A DNA stretch of 64,000 nt. Source: Halolamina pelagica (lineage in GTDB: Archaea; Halobacteriota; Halobacteria; Halobacteriales; Haloferacaceae). Below the pieces are notes generated by a model, which saw only the letters and a list, made by a program, of their open reading frames with translations, did no database searches and had not been told where the DNA came from. A program made the position numbers and the translations under genes. Below, piece after piece: positions 44,466 to 54,695 of the stretch. How positions within the stretch are numbered: the first letter of the stretch is position 1; every line of letters begins with the position of its first letter. Location of the stretch: positions 258,767 to 322,766 of the forward strand of contig NZ_FOXI01000003.1 in the NCBI RefSeq assembly GCF_900115675.1, in the 5' to 3' direction.

Positions 44466-45062
44466 TCAGGAGAGGACCCGACTCCGGTGTGTCCGGACCA
44501 TGTGGACCAGTGCCGAGAGACCGAAGGCGGCGCCGACGAGCAGGCCGGCGACGCTCGGCGACAGGGGGGCGAACGGAGGGAGTTCGACGGTGACCGCGAT
44601 CAGGAACGCGAACGACAGCAGCGAGAGCCCGAGGAAGTAGTCGCTCCAGGGCAGGTCGTTCCCGCTGACGACCTCGAGGTACGCGTCGAGCGTCTCCCCC
44701 TCCTCGGTGAGCCGGACCTCCCCCCGGTTCTGCTCGTACTCGACGACCCCGTACTCGTCCATCTTCGGCAGGTGGGACTGGTACAGCGAGGTGTACACTC
44801 GTTTTCGCTGCTTGTAGGTCACGGCGGCCTCCTCGACGCCGTTCTCCCACGCCGCGATCTCCGAGGCGAGTTCGCGCACCGTCGCTTCGTCCTCCTCGTT
44901 CCGCAGGTAGTACAGCACGAGCCGTCGCCGCCGGTTCGAGAGCAGTTCGAACACGCGATCCCGCGAGAACGACTGTGTCGGCGTCTCCGGACAGTGTTCG
45001 GAGCTCGTTGGCAGTTCGGCTGTGCGATCGGCCGCCTCCTCAACCTGTGTGAGTTGTGCCAT
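44466..45062 (-). CDS. DUF7344-type HTH membrane protein (copy 1)
   Basis: 198 aa. N-terminal winged helix: VFELLSNRRRRLVLYYLRNE, EATVRELASEIAAWENG, VYTSLYQSHLPKMDEYGVVE and RGEVRLTEEGE. Two membrane helices near the C-terminus (DYFLGLSLLSFAFLIAVTVE, VAGLLVGAAFGLSALVHM). Known from haloarchaea as DUF7344; presumed membrane-bound transcriptional regulators. Paralogue of 47,045. Convergent with the stress-protein gene. Confidence 0.82.
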   Translation of the reverse strand: MAQLTQVEEAADRTAELPTSSEHCPETPTQSFSRDRVFELLSNRRRRLVLYYLRNEEDEATVRELASEIAAWENGVEEAAVTYKQRKRVYTSLYQSHLPKMDEYGVVEYEQNRGEVRLTEEGETLDAYLEVVSGNDLPWSDYFLGLSLLSFAFLIAVTVELPPFAPLSPSVAGLLVGAAFGLSALVHMVRTHRSRVLS

Positions 45063-46174: not shown

Positions 46175-47038
46175 ATGGGTATGAACTCGGTGAGCCGCAT
46201 CGAGCAGGCGACCGGCGTCGCATCGCTCAAAGACCCCGAGTACACCGGCCCGAACCGCTGCTGGCCGTGCACGCTGTCGAACCTCGGTATCGCGGCCGTG
46301 TTGACCGCAGGGGTCGGCGCGGCGGCGACACGGTGGGTTCCGGCCACGGGCGTGGCGGGCCCCGCGGCGGCCACGGTCGCCGCCGTCTCGCTGGCCGTGA
46401 TCTACCTCCGTGGCTACCTCGTCCCGGGGACGCCGAGGCTGACCCGCCGGTACTTCCCGGCGTGGCTGCTGGACTGGTTCGGGAAGGAGCCCGAGCGTCC
46501 GCCTGCGGCCGTCGACCCCCGGGAAACACTGGTGTCGATGGGCGTGCTCGTCGACGATCCCGCTGCCGACGACGTGATGCTTGACTCCGCGTTCGCGGCC
46601 GCGTGGCGCGAGCGCATCGACGCCCACTGGAACGACGAAGACGCGGTCCGCGCGACCATCGGCGACTTCGCCGGCGTCCCCCCCGGAAGCATCGAGTTCG
46701 AGTCCTACCCCGGGATGCTGGTGGCGTACGACGGCCCGGAACGGATCGCGTCCTGGGAGTCCCGGCCGGCCTGCGTGGCCGACGCCGCGGCGGCGGCGAC
46801 GCTCCCGGCGTTCGATCCGGAGTGGGAGCGGCGCCCGCTGGCGGTGCGGGCGGAGCTCCTCGGCGCGCTCCGGCTGTTCGTGGAGGAGTGTCCGGCATGC
46901 GGGGGGCAGGTGTCGCTCCGGACCGAGGTGGTCGAGTCCTGCTGTTCGAGCCGCGACGTTGTCGCCGCGACTTGCGACTCCTGTGGCGCCAGACTGTTCG
47001 AGGTCGACGCCCCGCCGGACCTCCTCGCGGCGGAGTGA
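46175..47038 (+). CDS. Haloarchaeal membrane protein with C-terminal zinc ribbon
   Basis: 287 aa. Begins ...YTGPNRCWPCTLSNLGIAAV with a Cys-x-x-Cys just before two membrane segments (~36-55, ~64-82), then a ~170-residue soluble part (TLPAFDPEWERRPLAVRAEL) and a zinc ribbon ECPACGG...CDSCGARLFEVD near the C-terminus. Additional paired Cys (ESCCSS) lie between. Looks like a conserved haloarchaeal protein; function unknown. An alternative start is ATG 46181, two codons downstream. Confidence 0.7.
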   Translation: MGMNSVSRIEQATGVASLKDPEYTGPNRCWPCTLSNLGIAAVLTAGVGAAATRWVPATGVAGPAAATVAAVSLAVIYLRGYLVPGTPRLTRRYFPAWLLDWFGKEPERPPAAVDPRETLVSMGVLVDDPAADDVMLDSAFAAAWRERIDAHWNDEDAVRATIGDFAGVPPGSIEFESYPGMLVAYDGPERIASWESRPACVADAAAAATLPAFDPEWERRPLAVRAELLGALRLFVEECPACGGQVSLRTEVVESCCSSRDVVAATCDSCGARLFEVDAPPDLLAAE

Positions 47039-47044
47039 GTCGGC

Positions 47045-47614
47045 TCAGCGCCGACCGAGCGGCCGTCGTAGGCGGTCGACCCATCCCCGGAACGTTTCCA
47101 CGAGGTACCACCGCGCCCCCCAGAGCTGGGCGGTGACGGAGGCCGCGAGCACGAAGAGCGACCCGCTCGCCCAGAGCAGCGGGTCCACGGCCGAGACGAG
47201 CGGGACCCCGGCGAGCGAGGTCACCACCAGCGTCAGCGTCACCGCCGCCAGCGCCCGGTAGTACTCGTCCCACGTGATCCCGTACGGCGTCGCCACCGAC
47301 ATGTAAACGTTCACGTCGCGGGCGCGTGGCTGGAGCGACACTTCGGCGGTCTCGCGATCGTACCGCACCACGCCCAGTTCCTCCAGCTTCGGCAGGTGGG
47401 TCTGGTGGAGCGAGCTGTACACGCTCTCCCGAAGCGCCCGGGGTGGCGGCGAGGTGCCGGCCTCGGCGGCGGCGACGGCCTCCGAGAGTTCGTGGAGCTC
47501 GATCGTCGTCGGGTACACGCCATCGCTCAATTGTTGGATCGTCGCCCGTCGGCGCCGGTTCGCCAGTACTTCGTAGATCTCTGACTCCGGTAGCGTGTTC
47601 CGTCTGAGCTGCAT
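47045..47614 (-). CDS. DUF7344-type HTH membrane protein (copy 2)
   Basis: 189 aa, same layout as 44,466: YEVLANRRRRATIQQLSDGV, TIELHELSEAVAAAEAG, VYSSLHQTHLPKLEELGVVR, DRETAEVSLQ, then two membrane segments (AVTLTLVVTSLAGVPLVSAV, LLWASGSLFVLAASVTAQLW). Divergent from the vWA/TasA-like operon across 377 bp, so it is the best local candidate for its regulator. Start at MQLRRNTLP fits better than the longer basic form. Confidence 0.82.
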   Translation of the reverse strand: MQLRRNTLPESEIYEVLANRRRRATIQQLSDGVYPTTIELHELSEAVAAAEAGTSPPPRALRESVYSSLHQTHLPKLEELGVVRYDRETAEVSLQPRARDVNVYMSVATPYGITWDEYYRALAAVTLTLVVTSLAGVPLVSAVDPLLWASGSLFVLAASVTAQLWGARWYLVETFRGWVDRLRRPLGRR

Positions 47615-47991: not shown

Positions 47992-49545
47992 ATGACCGAC
48001 GACGACAACCCGATCCGACTGTCACGGCGCAAAGTGCTGGGCGGGCTCGGCGGCGTCGGCCTCGCCTCCGCGGGCGCGGGGCTCGGCACCACGGCCTACT
48101 TCAGCGACGAGGAATCGTTCACCGATAACTCCCTGACTGCGGGGGAGCTCGACCTCAAACTCGACTACAAGTCGACGTACGCGGGCGGGCCGGGGCGGCT
48201 CGACGAGATCGACGAGATGTACCCCGACTTCGACGTCGAGGAAATCGAAGACGGGGTCTACCTCACCGGCGAGGTTCCCGGTGCGGGTGATTACCCCGGT
48301 GACTGGTCCGGGGCAGTGCAGGACTGGGACCTGTGTGATCCGGAGCACAACCTCATCAACGGCGACGAGATCCCCGTGTTCAATCTCGAGGACGTCAAGC
48401 CGGGGGACAGCGGGGAGGTCACTATCAGCCTCCACATCTGTGACAACGCTTCGTGGGTGTGGATGGGCGGCGAGCTGACCGAGAACGCTCAGAACGGAAC
48501 CACCGAGCCGGAGAACGAGACGCTGTCGGAGGAGTTCGAGACGATCCCCGATCACGGCCAGCTCGCCGATGCCGTGGACGTGACGATGTGGTACGACGAG
48601 AACTGTAACAACGTCTACGAGCCCGGTGGCGAGGGCGAGCCACCCTGTGTCCAGCTCGTACTGGACGCGTCGGGTTCGATGTCAGGCAGCCGAAACGACG
48701 AGGCCATCGAGGGCGCGAAAGAGCTGGCGGACCGCATCCTCAGCGAGGCACCCGCCGGCAGCCGCGTCGGCGTGACGTTCTTCAGCGGCGACGGGTACGA
48801 CTCGGGCGCGAACACGGTCCAAACGCTCACCGACGACCTCTCGGCCGTCCAGGGCGCCATCGACACGCTTCCCGCTGACGGTGGCAGCACCGCAATCGGG
48901 GAGGGGATCGCGGCTGGGCAAGCCGAACTCGCGAACTGCGGACCGGACGAGGACCCGGTCATGGTCGTTCTGACTGACGGCCGAAACAACGAGGGACAGG
49001 ATCCGGCTTCCGCCGCGACCGCGGCCAAGAACGCCGGGACGGAGATCTTCGCGCTCGGTGTCGGTGGTGCACAGACCCAAACCCTCAACGAAATCGCCAG
49101 CGACCCGGACGACGCGCACGTCTTCGGGTCGACGACCAACCAGGCGATCAATCAGGCATTCAGCCAGATCGCGGAGACGATCGTCGGCGAGACGGTCATC
49201 TTCGAGGGCTCGCTCGCCGAGACGATGGCGGCGCTGGAGGACGGGATCCCCCTCGACGGCAACCGCGCCAACGAGGCGCGCGAGCCGTTCGCCGGCGGGA
49301 TGACCCAGTGTCTCGGCTTCGAGTGGGAGGTCCCCGCCGACGTGGGCAACGAGATCCAGACGGACTCGGTGATGTTCGACATCGATCTCTACGCCGAACA
49401 GTCGCGGCACAACGAGAACCCGACGAACCCGTACAACGAGACGGTGACGGGTAACGGCACGGCGACGCCGAACGGCACGGCGACGCCGAACGGCACGGCG
49501 ACGCCGAACGGCACGGCGACGCCCAACGGGAACAACACCTCGTAG
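47992..49545 (+). CDS. TasA/camelysin-like secreted protein with inserted vWA domain
   Basis: 517 aa. Tat-like/SipW-type leader RLSRRKVLGGLGGVGLASAG followed by the family marker AYFSDEESFTDNSLTAGELD (35-54). The TasA-type beta domain runs 45-215, is interrupted by a von Willebrand A domain (~219-397; MIDAS DASGSMS at 225-231, Thr300, Asp329 in LTDGRNN), then resumes with GETVIFEGSLAETMAALEDG and VPADVGNEIQTDSVMFDIDL. C-terminus: four NGTATP repeats, each an N-glycosylation sequon. A secreted fibre or adhesin subunit with a metal-dependent binding module is my inference. Confidence 0.85.
   Translation: MTDDDNPIRLSRRKVLGGLGGVGLASAGAGLGTTAYFSDEESFTDNSLTAGELDLKLDYKSTYAGGPGRLDEIDEMYPDFDVEEIEDGVYLTGEVPGAGDYPGDWSGAVQDWDLCDPEHNLINGDEIPVFNLEDVKPGDSGEVTISLHICDNASWVWMGGELTENAQNGTTEPENETLSEEFETIPDHGQLADAVDVTMWYDENCNNVYEPGGEGEPPCVQLVLDASGSMSGSRNDEAIEGAKELADRILSEAPAGSRVGVTFFSGDGYDSGANTVQTLTDDLSAVQGAIDTLPADGGSTAIGEGIAAGQAELANCGPDEDPVMVVLTDGRNNEGQDPASAATAAKNAGTEIFALGVGGAQTQTLNEIASDPDDAHVFGSTTNQAINQAFSQIAETIVGETVIFEGSLAETMAALEDGIPLDGNRANEAREPFAGGMTQCLGFEWEVPADVGNEIQTDSVMFDIDLYAEQSRHNENPTNPYNETVTGNGTATPNGTATPNGTATPNGTATPNGNNTS
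49453..49524 (+). repeat. Four tandem 18-bp units encoding NGTATP
   Basis: Unit AACGGCACGGCGACGCCG repeated four times, the last with one change (...CCC). It encodes a sequon-bearing stalk at the C-terminus of the vWA protein. Copy number is likely to vary between strains. Confidence 0.9.
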
Positions 49546-49578
49546 AGCTGCACAGCCCGTCGACGACCACGCTCCGTG

Positions 49579-49639
49579 GGCGGGGCCACGAGGCCCGGGC
49601 CCAGCGCCGGTTCGACTCCGGCGGCGGAGCTTCCCCGCC
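49579..49639 (+). other. tRNA T-arm-like hairpin inside a larger stem (element 1)
   Basis: GCCGG-TTCGACT-CCGGC (49606-49622) has a 5-bp stem and the canonical 7-base T-loop. An outer stem GGCGGGG (49579-49585)/CCCCGCC (49633-49639) encloses it. It ends 15 bp before the next gene's ATG, so it may affect translation or RNA processing. Confidence 0.5.
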
Positions 49640-49654
49640 AGGGGATGACCAACG

Positions 49655-51016
49655 ATGACTGACGACAACCCGATCAGACTCTCCCGCCGCAAGATGCTCG
49701 GTGGCGTCGGCGCCATCGGTCTCGCGAGCGCGGGCGCCGGACTCGGGACGACAGCGTACTTCAGCGACGAGGAATCGTTCACCGACAACAGCCTGACCGC
49801 CGGCGAGCTCGACCTGTTCGTCCACGTCGACTACGAGGAGGACCAGGGCGACTACGCCCAGTACAGCACGCCCGACGGCACGTACATCAACGGCGGCGTC
49901 GTCGGCGGCGAGGAGGAGGGCGAGCCCCTCCGGATCGAAGTGGAGGACCTCAAACCCGGCGACTCCGGCTGGGGGGAGCTCTGTTTCTCCGTCGTCGACA
50001 ACCCGGCGTACATGTGGATGTGCGGCGGGCTGACCGGGAACGCCCAGAACGGGACGACCGAACCCGAGCAGGAGACGCTCGAAGGGATGTACGAGACGAT
50101 CCCCGAGGAGGGCCAGCTCGCCGACGCGATGCAGGTCACGGTCTCGTACTGTTCCGAGAACGAGGACGGCGAAACCGTGATCGGCGACGAGATCGCCTCC
50201 GGCTCCCTCGCGGACGTGATGGCGGCCCTCGCGACGGGCGTGCCGCTGGCCGGCGACGGCGACGCCGACGCCGGGGTCGCGAACCGGCCCACCTTCGAGG
50301 GCGTCGAGCAGCCGTTCGTGGAGGAGGAGGTCAACGCCGCTGAGACCTGCGTCTGCTTCGAGTGGGCGGTCCCGACCGACGTGGGCAACGAGATCCAGAC
50401 GGACTCGGTGACGTTCGACTTCTCGTTCTACGCCCAGCAGGCCCGCCACAACGACGGCACGACCAACCCCTGCATCGACGAGTCCTACTCCGCGGAGTAC
50501 GACAACCCCGACGGGATCACTCAGCCCATCCCCGACGGCGTCGCCCAGGTCGACGTGACCTACGGCGAGAAGTGCGTCGTCTACGGCGTCACGTTCGACG
50601 AACCCGACGACAGCCAGTACAGTCTGGCCGACCCTGGCTTCGCGAACACCAACTTCTCGCTCCCGTTCGACGCCGACGCGGACGGCACCTACGACTTCCA
50701 GGTCGCGTGGAACGTCGACGGCAACGACGGGTTCCACTACTCGGCGGTCGATCAGAGCGTCCCGGAGTGGGAGAAAGACGCCGCGGCCGGCTGGTCCGCG
50801 CTCCCGCCGGGGTTCACCGCGGTCAAGATGGGGAACCAGGCGGCCATCTGTGTCCCGCGCTCGCTGCTCGAAGCGAGCAGCGACGACTTCGTCTTCGGGT
50901 TCTTCGCCGGTGCGGGCGGGGAACAGCCGTCGGTTGCCATCCCGACAGGCGGTCCGTACTCCTCCAGCGACAACTGGACCGCGAGCGAGAACGGTCTCGA
51001 TGCGACACTCCAGTAA
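49655..51016 (+). CDS. TasA/camelysin-like secreted protein with C-terminal extra domain
   Basis: 453 aa. The leader is almost identical to the previous protein (RLSRRKMLGGVGAIGLASAG, then AYFSDEESFTDNSLTAGELD). The beta domain is uninterrupted (~45-270): EVEDLKPGDSGWGELCFSVV, MWMCGGLTGNAQNGTTEPEQ, GSLADVMAALATGVPL and VPTDVGNEIQTDSVTFDFSF. Residues ~275-453 form a further domain rich in Asp and aromatic residues (VYGVTFDEPDD...). Three Cys in the beta domain are shared with the vWA protein. It probably co-assembles with it. Follows T-arm-like element 1. Confidence 0.82.
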   Translation: MTDDNPIRLSRRKMLGGVGAIGLASAGAGLGTTAYFSDEESFTDNSLTAGELDLFVHVDYEEDQGDYAQYSTPDGTYINGGVVGGEEEGEPLRIEVEDLKPGDSGWGELCFSVVDNPAYMWMCGGLTGNAQNGTTEPEQETLEGMYETIPEEGQLADAMQVTVSYCSENEDGETVIGDEIASGSLADVMAALATGVPLAGDGDADAGVANRPTFEGVEQPFVEEEVNAAETCVCFEWAVPTDVGNEIQTDSVTFDFSFYAQQARHNDGTTNPCIDESYSAEYDNPDGITQPIPDGVAQVDVTYGEKCVVYGVTFDEPDDSQYSLADPGFANTNFSLPFDADADGTYDFQVAWNVDGNDGFHYSAVDQSVPEWEKDAAAGWSALPPGFTAVKMGNQAAICVPRSLLEASSDDFVFGFFAGAGGEQPSVAIPTGGPYSSSDNWTASENGLDATLQ

Positions 51017-51048
51017 GCGTTGAAAACGCGTCGAGGCGCCGACCTCGG

Positions 51049-51091
51049 CCCCCCACATGGTGTACGGCGGTTCGACTCCGCCGGTGGGGTT
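51049..51091 (+). other. tRNA T-arm-like hairpin inside a larger stem (element 2)
   Basis: GGCGG-TTCGACT-CCGCC (51066-51082) carries the same 7-base T-loop as element 1, enclosed by CCCCAC (51051-51056)/GTGGGG (51084-51089). It lies in the 204-bp gap after the second TasA-like gene. A TATA-like CATTCATATCC (51170-51180) follows and may serve the next gene. Confidence 0.5.
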
Positions 51092-51220
51092 CCCGGAGGG
51101 GAAACCGACCATGTCCGAGATCGCTCGTGTCCGACCGACCGCCCCACGGCGCGCACCCGGTAGGGAGCGCATTCATATCCCGATTCGGTCCCTGCGTGCC
51201 GTTGAGGACGACCCATACCG

Positions 51221-51910
51221 ATGACCCGTCCTGATACACCCGAGCTCAACCGCCGCCGCGTCCTCGCCAGCGCCGGCCTGGTCGGTGCGGGTGCGTTCGG
51301 CGGCGCCGTCGGCGTCGCCGACCGCGTCACGCGGGACCCCCGCGAGTACACCCACTACACCTACGCTCGCGTCCCGGCGCAGGTGGACGGTACGGACACC
51401 GCGGACCCCCGGCTCCGGGTCGCGTGGGAGAGCAGGTACAACGGCGAGCGGGTCGCCACGAGCGGCGAGGGCCCCGAGTTCGTCGACGACGCCGCGGGCC
51501 CGCTGTTCTCGGCGTCGAACGTGTTGCCGGGGGACTACGGCACCGCGAGCATCCGGCTCGCGGTCGAGGGTGACGAGCCGGTGCAGGTCCGCGTCGTCCC
51601 CGTCGTCCGGGGCTCGCTCGCGACGGCGGTCTCGGTCCGCCTCGGTTACGACACGGGGGTCTTCGGCATCGGCGCTTGCGACGGCGCCGACCGCCCCGAC
51701 GACGTGGCCGGGGACGTGACGATGTCGCTCGCGGCGTTCGGGGAGGCCTACGGCGACGAGGGCCTGTCGCTGAACCCGGACTGCCTCGCCCCGGACGAGG
51801 AGCTCTGTCTCGGGTTCGGCTGGAAGTTCCCCGCGACCGAGACCAACGAGTGGCAACGGGCGTCGACTACCTTCGAACTGGCGTTCCACGCCGAGGGGTG
51901 TTCGGAATGA
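51221..51910 (+). CDS. Tat-exported TasA-like protein (short form)
   Basis: 229 aa. Leader LNRRRVLASAGLVGAGAFGG is Tat-like. The body keeps the family layout: LFSASNVLPGDYGTASIRLA, ...VRGSLATAVSVRLGYDTGVF, MSLAAFGEAYGDEGLSL, LCLGFGWKFPATETNEWQRA and FELAFHAEGC. Four to five Cys could form disulfides outside the cell. It lacks the AYFSDEE motif seen in its two upstream paralogues. Its stop overlaps the next ATG (ATGA). Confidence 0.75.
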   Translation: MTRPDTPELNRRRVLASAGLVGAGAFGGAVGVADRVTRDPREYTHYTYARVPAQVDGTDTADPRLRVAWESRYNGERVATSGEGPEFVDDAAGPLFSASNVLPGDYGTASIRLAVEGDEPVQVRVVPVVRGSLATAVSVRLGYDTGVFGIGACDGADRPDDVAGDVTMSLAAFGEAYGDEGLSLNPDCLAPDEELCLGFGWKFPATETNEWQRASTTFELAFHAEGCSE

Positions 51911-53013
51911 CCGACAACCGCCCCCCAGGGGTCCCCACGCGCCGGCAGTTGCTCGCGGGACTGGGCACGCTCGGCGCCGCGAGCGCGTTCGGCGGCGGCG
52001 CCGGGGCGGCGTTGCTCTCGGATTCGGAGGCCATGGGCGGGACGATCACGGCGGGTGACGTGTCGCTGACCGTCGACTGCCCGGACTGTCTCGCCACCCC
52101 GGACGGCATCGCGTTCGACCTCGCAGTCGACCCCGGCGAGAGCGGCTCGACGACGCTCTCGGTCGCCCCCGACGGCAACCCCGTCAGGCTGTGGGTCCGG
52201 ACCACCTGTCCCCCCGTCGGCGACGCGTTCGCCCGGGCGCTCGAGGTGACGCTCGGGCTCGACGCTGACTGCGACGGCGAGGCCGAGTCCACGCTGTTCG
52301 AGGGTTCGCTCGCCGACCTCCGGCGTTCGCTCGTCGACGGCCGGCGGCTCGAGGGATCGTCCCCGTGTGTTCCCACCGGCCAGTCGCTCTGTCTCGACCT
52401 CGGGTGGGAGCTCCCCGCTGACGTGACGATCCCCGCGTCGTCGACGACGCTCGCCTTCGAGTTCTACGCCGAGCAGTGCCGCCACCAGCCGGAGTCAGCC
52501 GTGACCGACCCGTTCGCCGGGACCGAACCCTGCCCCGAGGAGCCGGACTGTCCCGCGTGTGTCGACCTCGGCAAGATCGACGTCCAGGGCGACCAGCTGA
52601 CCGTCGGCGAGTCGTACGCCTTCACGGACGCCCCGAACGAGCAGTACCGGGACGACGGTCACGAGTACGCGATCGAGGTCCTGTCGGTCACCGACGAGGG
52701 CCAGCCCCCGGAGACCGTCGGCGCCGGCTTCCGACTGCTCCGGGACGGTGACCCCGCCGACGACCTGCGGATCTGTGCGGTCGCGGTGGGCGGCGGGCGG
52801 CCGGACCCCGATCTCAAGCCGTCGGACCCCGACGCGCGGGTCGCCCGCTACACGTTCGACCCGCCGTCGTCGTCGACGCCCGGGCAGGTGTACGCCGCCC
52901 ACGGGGCGTACAAGGACGACCCGCTGAGCCAACCCGACGACGATCGCCCGGCGATCAGCAACATCACTGTCTCCGTCTGCGCCGACGGGACGGGGGAGGA
53001 GACCGATGACTGA
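51907..53013 (+). CDS. TasA-like secreted protein with C-terminal domain
   Basis: 368 aa. Leader PTRRQLLAGLGTLGAASAFG (Tat-like) ending ALLSDSEAMGGTITAGDVSL, the SipW-type signal pattern in degenerate form. Beta domain to ~200: FEGSLADLRRSLVDGRRLEG, SLCLDLGWELPADVTIPASS and FEFYAEQCRHQPE, matching the preceding paralogues. Residues ~205-365 form an added domain (CPACVDLGKIDVQGDQLTVG...) with a CxxC. Overlaps the signal peptidase gene by 8 bp. Confidence 0.78.
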   Translation: MTDNRPPGVPTRRQLLAGLGTLGAASAFGGGAGAALLSDSEAMGGTITAGDVSLTVDCPDCLATPDGIAFDLAVDPGESGSTTLSVAPDGNPVRLWVRTTCPPVGDAFARALEVTLGLDADCDGEAESTLFEGSLADLRRSLVDGRRLEGSSPCVPTGQSLCLDLGWELPADVTIPASSTTLAFEFYAEQCRHQPESAVTDPFAGTEPCPEEPDCPACVDLGKIDVQGDQLTVGESYAFTDAPNEQYRDDGHEYAIEVLSVTDEGQPPETVGAGFRLLRDGDPADDLRICAVAVGGGRPDPDLKPSDPDARVARYTFDPPSSSTPGQVYAAHGAYKDDPLSQPDDDRPAISNITVSVCADGTGEETDD

Positions 53014-53992
53014 GACAGACGACACCACCGACGAACGAACCGACACGACGGCCACCGCGGAGGGATCTGATCCCGCCGATGCCCCGCCCGACGACCAGGT
53101 GCCGTCCGAACCCCGGGACGCCGACGGGTCTGGGAGCGCCCAGCGCGTGACGCTCCGGCGGGTGCTGAACGTCCTCGGCGTCCTCCTGTTGCTCGCCGTG
53201 GTGGCACCGTTCGTGGTGTACGCGGTGCCCGGCGTCGTCGGCGCGGACGCGAGCTTCGTCGTCCTGAGCGGCAGCATGGAGCCGGCGATATCCGCGGGCG
53301 ACGTGGTGGTCGTCGAGTCGGTGCCGCCCGGGGCGATCGCCGTCGACGACGTGGTCACCTACTCCCGGAGCGACGAGGGCGCGACGGTGACCCACCGCGT
53401 CATCGAGGTGGACGACACCGGCGACGAGCGCGTGTTCTACACAAAGGGTGACGCCAACGAGGACGCCGACCAGCGGCCGGTGCCCGCGTCGGCGCTCGTC
53501 GGCTCGGTCGTACTCACCATCCCCTACATCGGCTACGTGATCCAGTTCGTCGGCACCAGAACGGGGTTCGCGCTGCTGGTCGTCCTCCCCTTCGGCGCGC
53601 TGCTGGTCACGGAAGTCGGGTCGTACCTGCGACGCAGGCGCCACGGGGACGGGCAGGCCACGGAGCGGGAATCGCCGGCGCCGGTTCGGACGACCGCAGA
53701 GCGGGACGCGTCGACCGAGGCCGTGGCGATATCCTCCACGGACATGCTGCTCACGCTGGGCGTGCTCGCGGCGGTCCTGCCCTACCTGGGCTTCGTCGCC
53801 CTCCAACGGGAGTCGGCGCTCTCGATCGGCATCGCCGTCGGGTTCGGCACGGCGTTCGCGCTGCTCGCCGGCGTGTTCATCTCCGCCCGGCTCCGCGAGC
53901 GGTCCCAAGCGTCGGGGACGCGAGACTCGGCCGTGCCCGACCGTCCGACCGCGGCAAGCGACGGCGGCACGACGCCGGAGGAGGAACGATGA
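53006..53992 (+). CDS. Signal peptidase I, archaeal/SipW type
   Basis: 328 aa. Acidic N-terminal tail (1-48), membrane helix ~52-78, catalytic Ser90 in VLSGSMEP, and the archaeal/ER-type catalytic His130 in VTHRVIEV (instead of bacterial Lys), then YTKGDANEDAD with the third conserved Asp. Further helices (~175-205, ~245-300). Embedded between TasA-like genes and the Thr/Pro-rich protein, it most likely processes these exported subunits, as SipW processes TasA in Bacillus. Stop overlaps next ATG. Confidence 0.88.
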   Translation: MTETDDTTDERTDTTATAEGSDPADAPPDDQVPSEPRDADGSGSAQRVTLRRVLNVLGVLLLLAVVAPFVVYAVPGVVGADASFVVLSGSMEPAISAGDVVVVESVPPGAIAVDDVVTYSRSDEGATVTHRVIEVDDTGDERVFYTKGDANEDADQRPVPASALVGSVVLTIPYIGYVIQFVGTRTGFALLVVLPFGALLVTEVGSYLRRRRHGDGQATERESPAPVRTTAERDASTEAVAISSTDMLLTLGVLAAVLPYLGFVALQRESALSIGIAVGFGTAFALLAGVFISARLRERSQASGTRDSAVPDRPTAASDGGTTPEEER

Positions 53993-54525
53993 CCCGGACC
54001 CACCGTGCCGGGGTGCTCGTGGTGGTCTGCCTGCTGATCGTCGTCCTGGGCAGCGGGATCGGCGCCGAGACGGTCGCGCTCCTGACCGCCAGCGAGACCG
54101 TGACGGGGACGTTCTACACCAACGGCTCAGCCGGCAATCAGCCCCTCGCCACCGAGAGCCTCGGCGGAACCGAGCCGGCGTCGGCGAACGGGACTGCGGT
54201 ACCGAACGGAACGCCGACGCCGACGGCGGCACCGACTCCGACGCCGGACGGAACGGACACTTCGACCCCCGCGTCCACGCCGAACGGGACCGACACGCCA
54301 ACCCCGACGGCGACGCCCGCGCCCACCCGGACCGCGACACCGACCGAAACAGCGACGCCGACGCCCACCGAGACTGCAACACCGGCGCCGACGCCGACCG
54401 AAACAGCGACGCCGACCGAAACCGCGACGCCGACGTCGAACGGGACGGCGACGGCCACGCCGAACGGGACAGCCACCGCCAGCGTCGGCGTTTCGCTGGA
54501 CGGGCTGGCCGGGGGTGACAGCTGA
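53989..54525 (+). CDS. Thr/Pro-rich surface protein with N-glycosylation sequons
   Basis: 178 aa. N-terminal hydrophobic helix GVLVVVCLLIVVLGSGIGAE works as signal or anchor, followed by a short TVTGTFYTNGSAG segment with the SipW-type feel. About 110 residues are a low-complexity TPTPTATP region with several NGT sequons. No C-terminal membrane anchor. Probably a glycosylated stalk or wall-spanning linker of the system. ATGA overlap with the peptidase gene; TGATG overlap with the next small gene. Confidence 0.75.
   Translation: MTRTHRAGVLVVVCLLIVVLGSGIGAETVALLTASETVTGTFYTNGSAGNQPLATESLGGTEPASANGTAVPNGTPTPTAAPTPTPDGTDTSTPASTPNGTDTPTPTATPAPTRTATPTETATPTPTETATPAPTPTETATPTETATPTSNGTATATPNGTATASVGVSLDGLAGGDS
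54195..54475 (+). repeat. Thr/Pro-coding low-complexity repeats
   Basis: Imperfect runs of ACGCCGAC/ACCGAAAC-type units encode TxTP/TETATP repeats in the surface protein. Prone to length variation. Confidence 0.8.
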
Positions 54526-54695
54526 TGATCGGCCCCTTCGACGGATGGTTCCGATCGTTGCTGCTCGGGCGCGTGCCCTCCCCCGTCGTGTTCGTCGACG
54601 GGGGGAGCCCACCGATCTCGAAGCGCATGGTGCTGTACCTGCTCTCCCTGCTCCTGCTCGCCGCGGTGGCCCTGGGCTGGGTCTTCCACCCGTAG
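54525..54695 (+). CDS. 56-aa membrane protein ending the TasA-like operon
   Basis: Reads MIGPFDGWFRSLLLGRVPSP, VVFVDGGSPPISK, then one membrane helix (MVLYLLSLLLLAAVALGWVF) and HP at the end. Start ATG overlaps the preceding stop (TGATG), so it is almost surely translated with it. Too short for many gene callers. It could be a membrane anchor or assembly factor for the fibre system. Family not recognised. Confidence 0.65.
   Translation: MIGPFDGWFRSLLLGRVPSPVVFVDGGSPPISKRMVLYLLSLLLLAAVALGWVFHP

Follow-up and report, generated by a model that had tools for sequence, protein, structure and literature searches.

Analysis of a 64,000-nt stretch of a Halolamina pelagica contig (hereafter the window, whose positions are used for all coordinates below) revealed seven same-direction genes at positions 47992-54695 that probably constitute a TasA-type extracellular fibre operon. 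To this reading, which draws on sequences and structural models and takes in the mechanism proposed below, with cutting of the transcript at tRNA-like elements, we assign a probability of roughly 70%. The operon, located on the plus strand, encodes four exported proteins (P1 to P4), a SipW-like type I signal peptidase, a stalk protein (P6) and a small membrane protein (P7), and is preceded by a divergent DUF7344 gene. All these genes had been listed by a first-pass annotation of the window and were found to be present where it had placed them.

Exported subunits and the TasA fold

P1 (517 aa, 47992-49545) and P2 (453 aa, 49655-51016) each combine a twin-arginine translocation (Tat) and SipW-type signal with a TasA-like jelly-roll domain, which in P1 contains a nested vWA domain with a metal-ion-dependent adhesion site (MIDAS) and in P2 is accompanied by an extra C-terminal domain. 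P3 (229 aa, 51221-51910) has a twin-arginine signal and a TasA-related domain, without a SipW or donor motif, while P4 (368 aa, 51907-53013) possesses a Tat signal with a degenerate SipW-type signal, a TasA-related domain and a conserved C-terminal domain. The sequence AYFSDEESFTDNSLTAGELDL, situated after the twin-arginine signal, is identical in P1 and P2, exactly bearing out the near-identical signal regions previously attributed to two of the proteins. The SipW-cognate signal model TIGR04088 scored 28.9 and 31.4 bits with P1 and P2, respectively, above its cut-off of 19, and matched 11 of 22 P4 homologues and none of the 32 P3 homologues. Both arginines of the RR motif preceding the signal core are at least 90% conserved in the four alignments (A1-A4); the generic TAT model TIGR01409 remained below its cut-off.

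The mature parts of all four proteins belong to a single family. After removal of its signal and vWA domain, P1 matched P2 (1e-43), P4 (5e-10) and P3 (3e-5) directly, the mature domains of P1-P4 converged on one profile, and hhalign matched the P2 family to the P3 family (99.8% probability) and the P4 family (100%) along the whole domain. Since this homology spans the entire mature domain and extends beyond a motif, it accounts for the shared C-terminal, TasA-like ending that the first-pass annotation had ascribed to all four proteins; the ending itself does not hold throughout, as P3 terminates in ...FHAEGCSE, without RH.

The AlphaFold2 (AF2) model of the P2 domain, built with 46 haloarchaeal relatives, reached a predicted local distance difference test (pLDDT) value above 90 in its core, whereas residues 1-45 were mostly disordered, as expected of a signal plus a free donor strand. 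A Foldseek comparison with 350,542 PDB chains placed the TasA fibre 8AUR at rank 1 and the TasA monomer 5OF2 at rank 2 (probability 1.00), and these were the sole matches with E ≤ 0.001 (E about 3e-4). The structural check proposed earlier thus returned a predicted TasA-like domain, and not an unrelated fold, for the exported P2 domain. The P2-family profile also aligned with TasA, weakly but end to end, including the KPGD and FxFxAxQ segments (E 0.03). In TasA, the released N-terminal strand enters the next subunit, where its contacts are hydrophobic and made by F29, I32 and F39 (PMC9674648); P2 has Phe36, Phe42 and Leu47 at comparable positions, where a hydrophobic residue is found in 93-100% of 46 homologues. 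The Pfam camelysin model PF12389 (cut-off 22.5) scored 19.9 with full-length P1, 22.3 with full-length P2 and 25.7 with the P2 domain fragment, and a search of the organism's own genome with it gave nothing above threshold. The TasA equivalog NF046066 yielded 11.4 against a cut-off of 450, and phmmer detected no matches of P2 in the PDB. Two other candidates were dismissed, namely 9P0A, the first PDB profile match of the P2 family, as a homologue, because it covers the signal only, and the sialoadhesin matches as local chance.

The vWA domain of P1 (Pfam VWA, 88.1 bits) is inserted within the TasA domain, following the WYDENCNNVYEP stretch. One protein with the same nesting was detected in each of 29 loci, the window being one of them, and nearly all of these proteins have the D-x-SGS motif, so that the vWA combination remarked on in the first-pass annotation is real and conserved. 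The AF2 model of P1 (pLDDT 75.6) shows a vWA fold, and its Foldseek matches include SpaC and Mfa5, pilus adhesins whose vWA domains belong to surface filament proteins; the backbone domain of P1 is TasA-like. The C-terminal tail of P1 is rich in sequons of the TPNGTA type.

Signal peptidase, stalk protein and conservation of the cluster

The peptidase gene (53006-53992) encodes a protein with SGSM and THRV motifs, which scored 110.9 bits with the archaeal/endoplasmic reticulum-type signal peptidase model TIGR02228 (cut-off 51.85), in full agreement with its earlier designation as a type I signal peptidase with archaeal Ser/His residues. With the Bacillus SipW equivalog NF046067 it gave 103.7 bits, below the cut-off of 190; the cluster peptidases tested ranged from 99 to 110 bits, and the three other peptidases of the genome reached at most 43. 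As no cluster peptidase tested attains the 190-bit cut-off, the name SipW-like is used here. The same genome harbours a second TasA/SipW operon on contig C36 (L035, 7301-15078) and an additional TasA-like gene on contig C23 (L036, 613-2043). Signal peptidases on contigs C11 (L097) and C17 (L098), distinct from both SipW and the probable housekeeping peptidase (L099), adjoin other exported or membrane proteins.

A survey of 292 Halobacteria genomes identified relatives of SipW in 157 of them and the TasA domain in 138, all 138 of which also possess the peptidase (counts that ignore kinship). Just two of the 140 genomes that matched SipW strongly were without the TasA domain. In 60 loci, most of them picked by their SipW match, the same arrangement recurred, in which a divergently oriented gene of the DUF7344 type is followed by several genes for TasA-like proteins and then by P3-type, P4-type, sipW and stalk genes; the simple gene caller used overlooks some genes (for example, a TasA gene in L061), and the numbers of genes per locus are accordingly lower bounds. 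The gene-neighbourhood survey suggested by the first-pass annotation therefore showed TasA genes and peptidase to occur together, with their order kept. This co-occurrence and the TasA-like fold support the view of the cluster as a probable dedicated extracellular-fibre or adhesion system.

Downstream of the peptidase gene lie those of P6 (178 aa, 53989-54525), with a hydrophobic membrane/signal N-terminus and a disordered Thr/Pro/sequon stalk, and P7 (56 aa, 54525-54695), with one C-terminal transmembrane segment; both the sequon-rich stalk protein and the small membrane protein described initially are thereby confirmed. P6 is a low-complexity stalk in which neither a TasA, an Ig-like nor any other domain was found, and it bears the SipW-cognate, donor-strand-like motif ALLTASETVTGTF. 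The consensus of this motif in the stalk family is A-V/L-F/L-S/T-D...V...F, and the sequence stops before the AGxLDL strand. Nearly all of 53 loci have a stalk-type open reading frame (ORF) directly 3' of sipW, either overlapping that gene or adjoining it, its place being taken by a P4-like protein in a few loci such as L074 and L090, and a small tail-anchored ORF resembling P7 follows the stalk gene in 23 of the 53. TIGR04088 matched 21 of 47 stalk N-termini (14.6 bits for the window stalk, under the cut-off of 19), while the TapA model TIGR04087 failed to identify the stalks as TapA, with weak matches in 4 of the 47 (best 0.012).

At the family level, nevertheless, the stalk proteins combine the three traits sought in a TapA partner, namely a SipW-type signal, a donor strand and an overlap with sipW. 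In Bacillus, where the tapA and sipW genes overlap, the initial donor strand comes from TapA, and TapA cut back to residue 57 still supports biofilm formation (PMC10151520), so that a donor peptide can suffice. Because P6 keeps the donor motif without a TasA domain, and its gene overlaps sipW as tapA does, our analysis suggests that P6 is a TapA-like starter or anchor, the likeness being one of working only.

Consecutive genes from P3 onwards overlap by 4 nt (P3-P4), 8 nt (P4-SipW), 4 nt (SipW-P6) and 1 nt (P6-P7). The ATGA/TGATG overlaps reported for the cluster thus stand for this part, but not for P1-P2 and P2-P3, which are separated by gaps of 109 and 204 nt, respectively, each housing one tRNA-like element. 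An AT-rich conserved stretch, ATTCATATC, about 45 nt upstream of P3 (51112-51221), is a possible separate promoter of P3-P7, and a short ORF runs from about 51112 to the P3 start codon.

tRNA-like elements between the genes

The sequence GGTTCGACTCC occurs in both the P1-P2 and the P2-P3 gap (2 matches in the window, 0.13 expected). The element consists of a perfect tRNA-type T-arm, which includes GGTTCGACTCC and is formed by a five-pair stem and a seven-base TTCGACT loop, a seven-base strand and then a small hairpin; the outer six bases of the seven-base strand pair with an upstream strand, like the acceptor stem of a tRNA. Element 1 (49572-49645, plus strand) comprises acceptor-like strands (49572-49577/49624-49629), a T-stem (49606-49610/49618-49622) enclosing the T-loop TTCGACT (49611-49617), and the following hairpin (49630-49645). 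Element 2 (51051-51104, plus strand) has acceptor-like strands at 51051-51056/51084-51089, a T-stem at 51066-51070/51078-51082 and a T-loop at 51071-51077, then the hairpin, and its T-arm and 3' acceptor strand are identical in a near relative (L037).

A survey of the 60 loci plus the window, with tests that ignore kinship, located the T-arm upstream of 85 of the 165 internal TasA-family genes preceded by a gap of at least 40 nt. It preceded only 3 of the 65 first genes and 2 of the 627 other genes, and was absent from all 39 overlapping genes. Within the upstream 170 nt, 88 copies were in sense and 0 in antisense orientation, most often about 41 nt ahead of the start codon. A hairpin of at least five pairs follows the element in 79% of cases (12% in shuffles), the outer pairs of the T-stem are intact in 88 of the 94 copies (shuffle maximum 68), and a strict six-pair acceptor partner is present in 43 of 94 (maximum 28 in 2000 permutations). 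As both T-stem and acceptor pairing exceed the shuffle or permutation maxima, the pairing of the element covaries. Folding of the whole P2-P3 gap as RNA was not significant (z -0.60), and the structural case accordingly draws on covariation and position.

Searching 79 whole genomes for the exact pattern returned 33 matches, and the reversed-pattern control none. Twenty-eight of the 33 fall in TasA clusters, as judged by position beside TasA-domain matches or by inspection, and five in clusters of an RR-exported family homologous to the 9P0A 'Pilin' (E 3.6e-13). A further copy occurs in a 9P0A-type pilin cluster of the window's own genome, and the element is common to TasA-type and 9P0A-type clusters (L174, L181, L182-L187). 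ARAGORN predicted no complete tRNA gene between 40 and 60 kb of the window, the element representing the tRNA-like top half only. Rfam gave no match to it; the Cis52, DUF3800-XI, Atu_C3 and mir-598 hits were under their gathering scores and did not coincide with the T-arm.

The half of the tRNA that the element mimics is the one recognised by RNase P and tRNase Z, and the simplest reading of the sequence data is that the element is an RNA processing site imitating this half for the two enzymes. That they cut the mimic in a polycistronic transcript and thereby set subunit ratios, in TasA-type and 9P0A-type systems alike, is a tentative proposal to which we give somewhat less than an even chance. 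An uncut structured leader controlling translation or attenuation would suit the closeness of the element to the start codon and the frequent second hairpin behind it, yet such a leader would be expected at first genes too, where the element is nearly lacking, and we regard it as rather unlikely; for the same scarcity, a promoter or general 5' leader was dismissed. Less likely again is a role at the DNA level, as a recombination site or a mobile repeat of tRNA origin by which fibre genes are shuffled. Integrases classically use the T-arms of tRNA genes as their sites, and near-identical copies do precede tandem paralogues (e.g. in L039 and L058), but the exclusively sense orientation, the preferred distance from the start codon and the near absence before first genes argue against it, as do the compensatory pairing and the conserved following hairpin.

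Proposed fibre assembly, alternative readings and related systems

In the proposed mechanism, the subunits would fold in the cytoplasm, cross the membrane by Tat and remain anchored until SipW cleaves beside the YFSD motif, whereupon the freed N-terminal strand would fill the groove of the next subunit by donor-strand exchange. The role of repeating or adhesive subunit would fall to P2 and perhaps to P1, with the nested vWA domain of P1 binding ligands or surfaces; P6, having a donor motif but lacking a TasA domain, would serve as starter or anchor of the fibre in the manner of TapA, and P3-type proteins, with a TasA domain and no SipW or donor motif, may end it as a cap. The DUF7344 protein would control the operon. 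RNase P/tRNase Z cleavage at the tRNA-like elements would split the long transcript, each fibre mRNA then beginning with the small, presumably protective hairpin and being produced in its own amount.

Several points weigh against this reading. The fibre is a prediction from genes and modelled structures, and the models behind the proposed donor-strand assembly are of single chains. Foldseek gave modest TM-scores of 0.33-0.51, TasA is matched weakly by sequence alone, full-length P1 and P2 lie just under the Pfam camelysin cut-off, the matches of the stalk family to the TapA model are few and weak, and about half of the internal TasA genes are without the strict form of the element. It could be argued that the proteins are TasA-fold surface adhesins, single or bound to the S-layer, which never polymerise and are merely released by SipW. 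Such adhesins typically bear vWA domains and sequon-rich stalks, and several of the subunits have extra C-terminal domains; however, the donor-strand motif conserved behind the cleavage site, the several paralogous subunits per operon and the donor-only partner gene fit polymerisation better, which makes this possibility quite improbable in our estimate. Far more improbable are secreted metallopeptidases of the camelysin (M73) family. PF12389, which describes camelysin as a metallo-endopeptidase, matches 42 of 46 homologues and exceeds its cut-off with the P2 domain fragment, but the P2 match is confined to the signal and first strand (residues 18-57), neither HExxH nor a His cluster occurs in the invariant columns, and the domain folds like TasA, which has a structural role in fibres.

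The closest known counterpart of the putative fibre operon is tapA-sipW-tasA of Bacillus subtilis, with which it shares the best-matching fold, a SipW-type peptidase, SipW-cognate signals, the donor motif (PMC9674648, PMC10151520) and a minor partner gene overlapping sipW. It differs in its twin-arginine signals, several paralogous subunits and nested vWA domain, in a stalk partner located after sipW and devoid of a folded domain, in a DUF7344 gene instead of SinR, and in the tRNA-like elements between genes. The same differences apply to the Bacillus cereus sipW-calY system, in which TasA/camelysin paralogues likewise share an operon with SipW (PMC10151520). Archaeal bundling pili (AbpA, Pyrobaculum calidifontis) are similar as archaeal TasA-related donor-strand fibres, as reported in the literature (PMC9674648, PMC10903470), although no entry for these pili was among the top 50 fold matches of P2. 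The 9P0A Pilin has an RR-type signal ending in a similar GTxAF region, and in the clusters of its haloarchaeal relatives the tRNA-like element recurs next to genes of the DUF7344 kind; the P2 family, however, matches 9P0A in the signal region only. Clusters in L182-L185 and L174 contain paralogous pilins of the 9P0A type (MKRRxxxxxxGTGAFTSVxAxR) together with relatives of DUF1102, and have DUF7344-like genes nearby; L184 also has a signal peptidase close to the cluster.

TasA-like proteins in archaea generally are already known (PMC10151520, PMC10903470). Nothing relevant emerged from literature searches on haloarchaeal SipW or TasA, on DUF1102 and on 9P0A, and no paper pairing SipW with haloarchaea was found in the open literature, as far as which shows, the combination that had looked new to the first annotator still does so. 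In Haloferax volcanii biofilms, Congo red and thioflavin T (ThT) staining marks an amyloid-like component (PMC4180959), and the TasA/SipW-type operon, occurring in about half of the sampled Halobacteria genomes, is a concrete candidate for such a component. If correct, our reading would add to the TasA-type fibres a class of multi-subunit filaments that are exported by Tat and bear adhesins, and the element, if processed, would represent a new way to set filament stoichiometry.

The DUF7344 gene (47045-47614, minus strand; PF24035, 92.5 bits) encodes a winged-helix-like membrane protein. In 52 of 57 clusters, a gene of this type sits immediately upstream in divergent orientation, a placement that strengthens its proposed role as candidate controller. 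The cluster is also adjoined by a gene (46175-47038) for a membrane protein with an NPxYTGxNRCxPCT motif and a Cys-rich C-terminus, which had no Pfam match above cut-off (DUF7351 weak) and has 41 homologues within the 60 loci and the window. A second DUF7344 membrane protein (114.5 bits) is encoded near the cluster, at 44466-45062.

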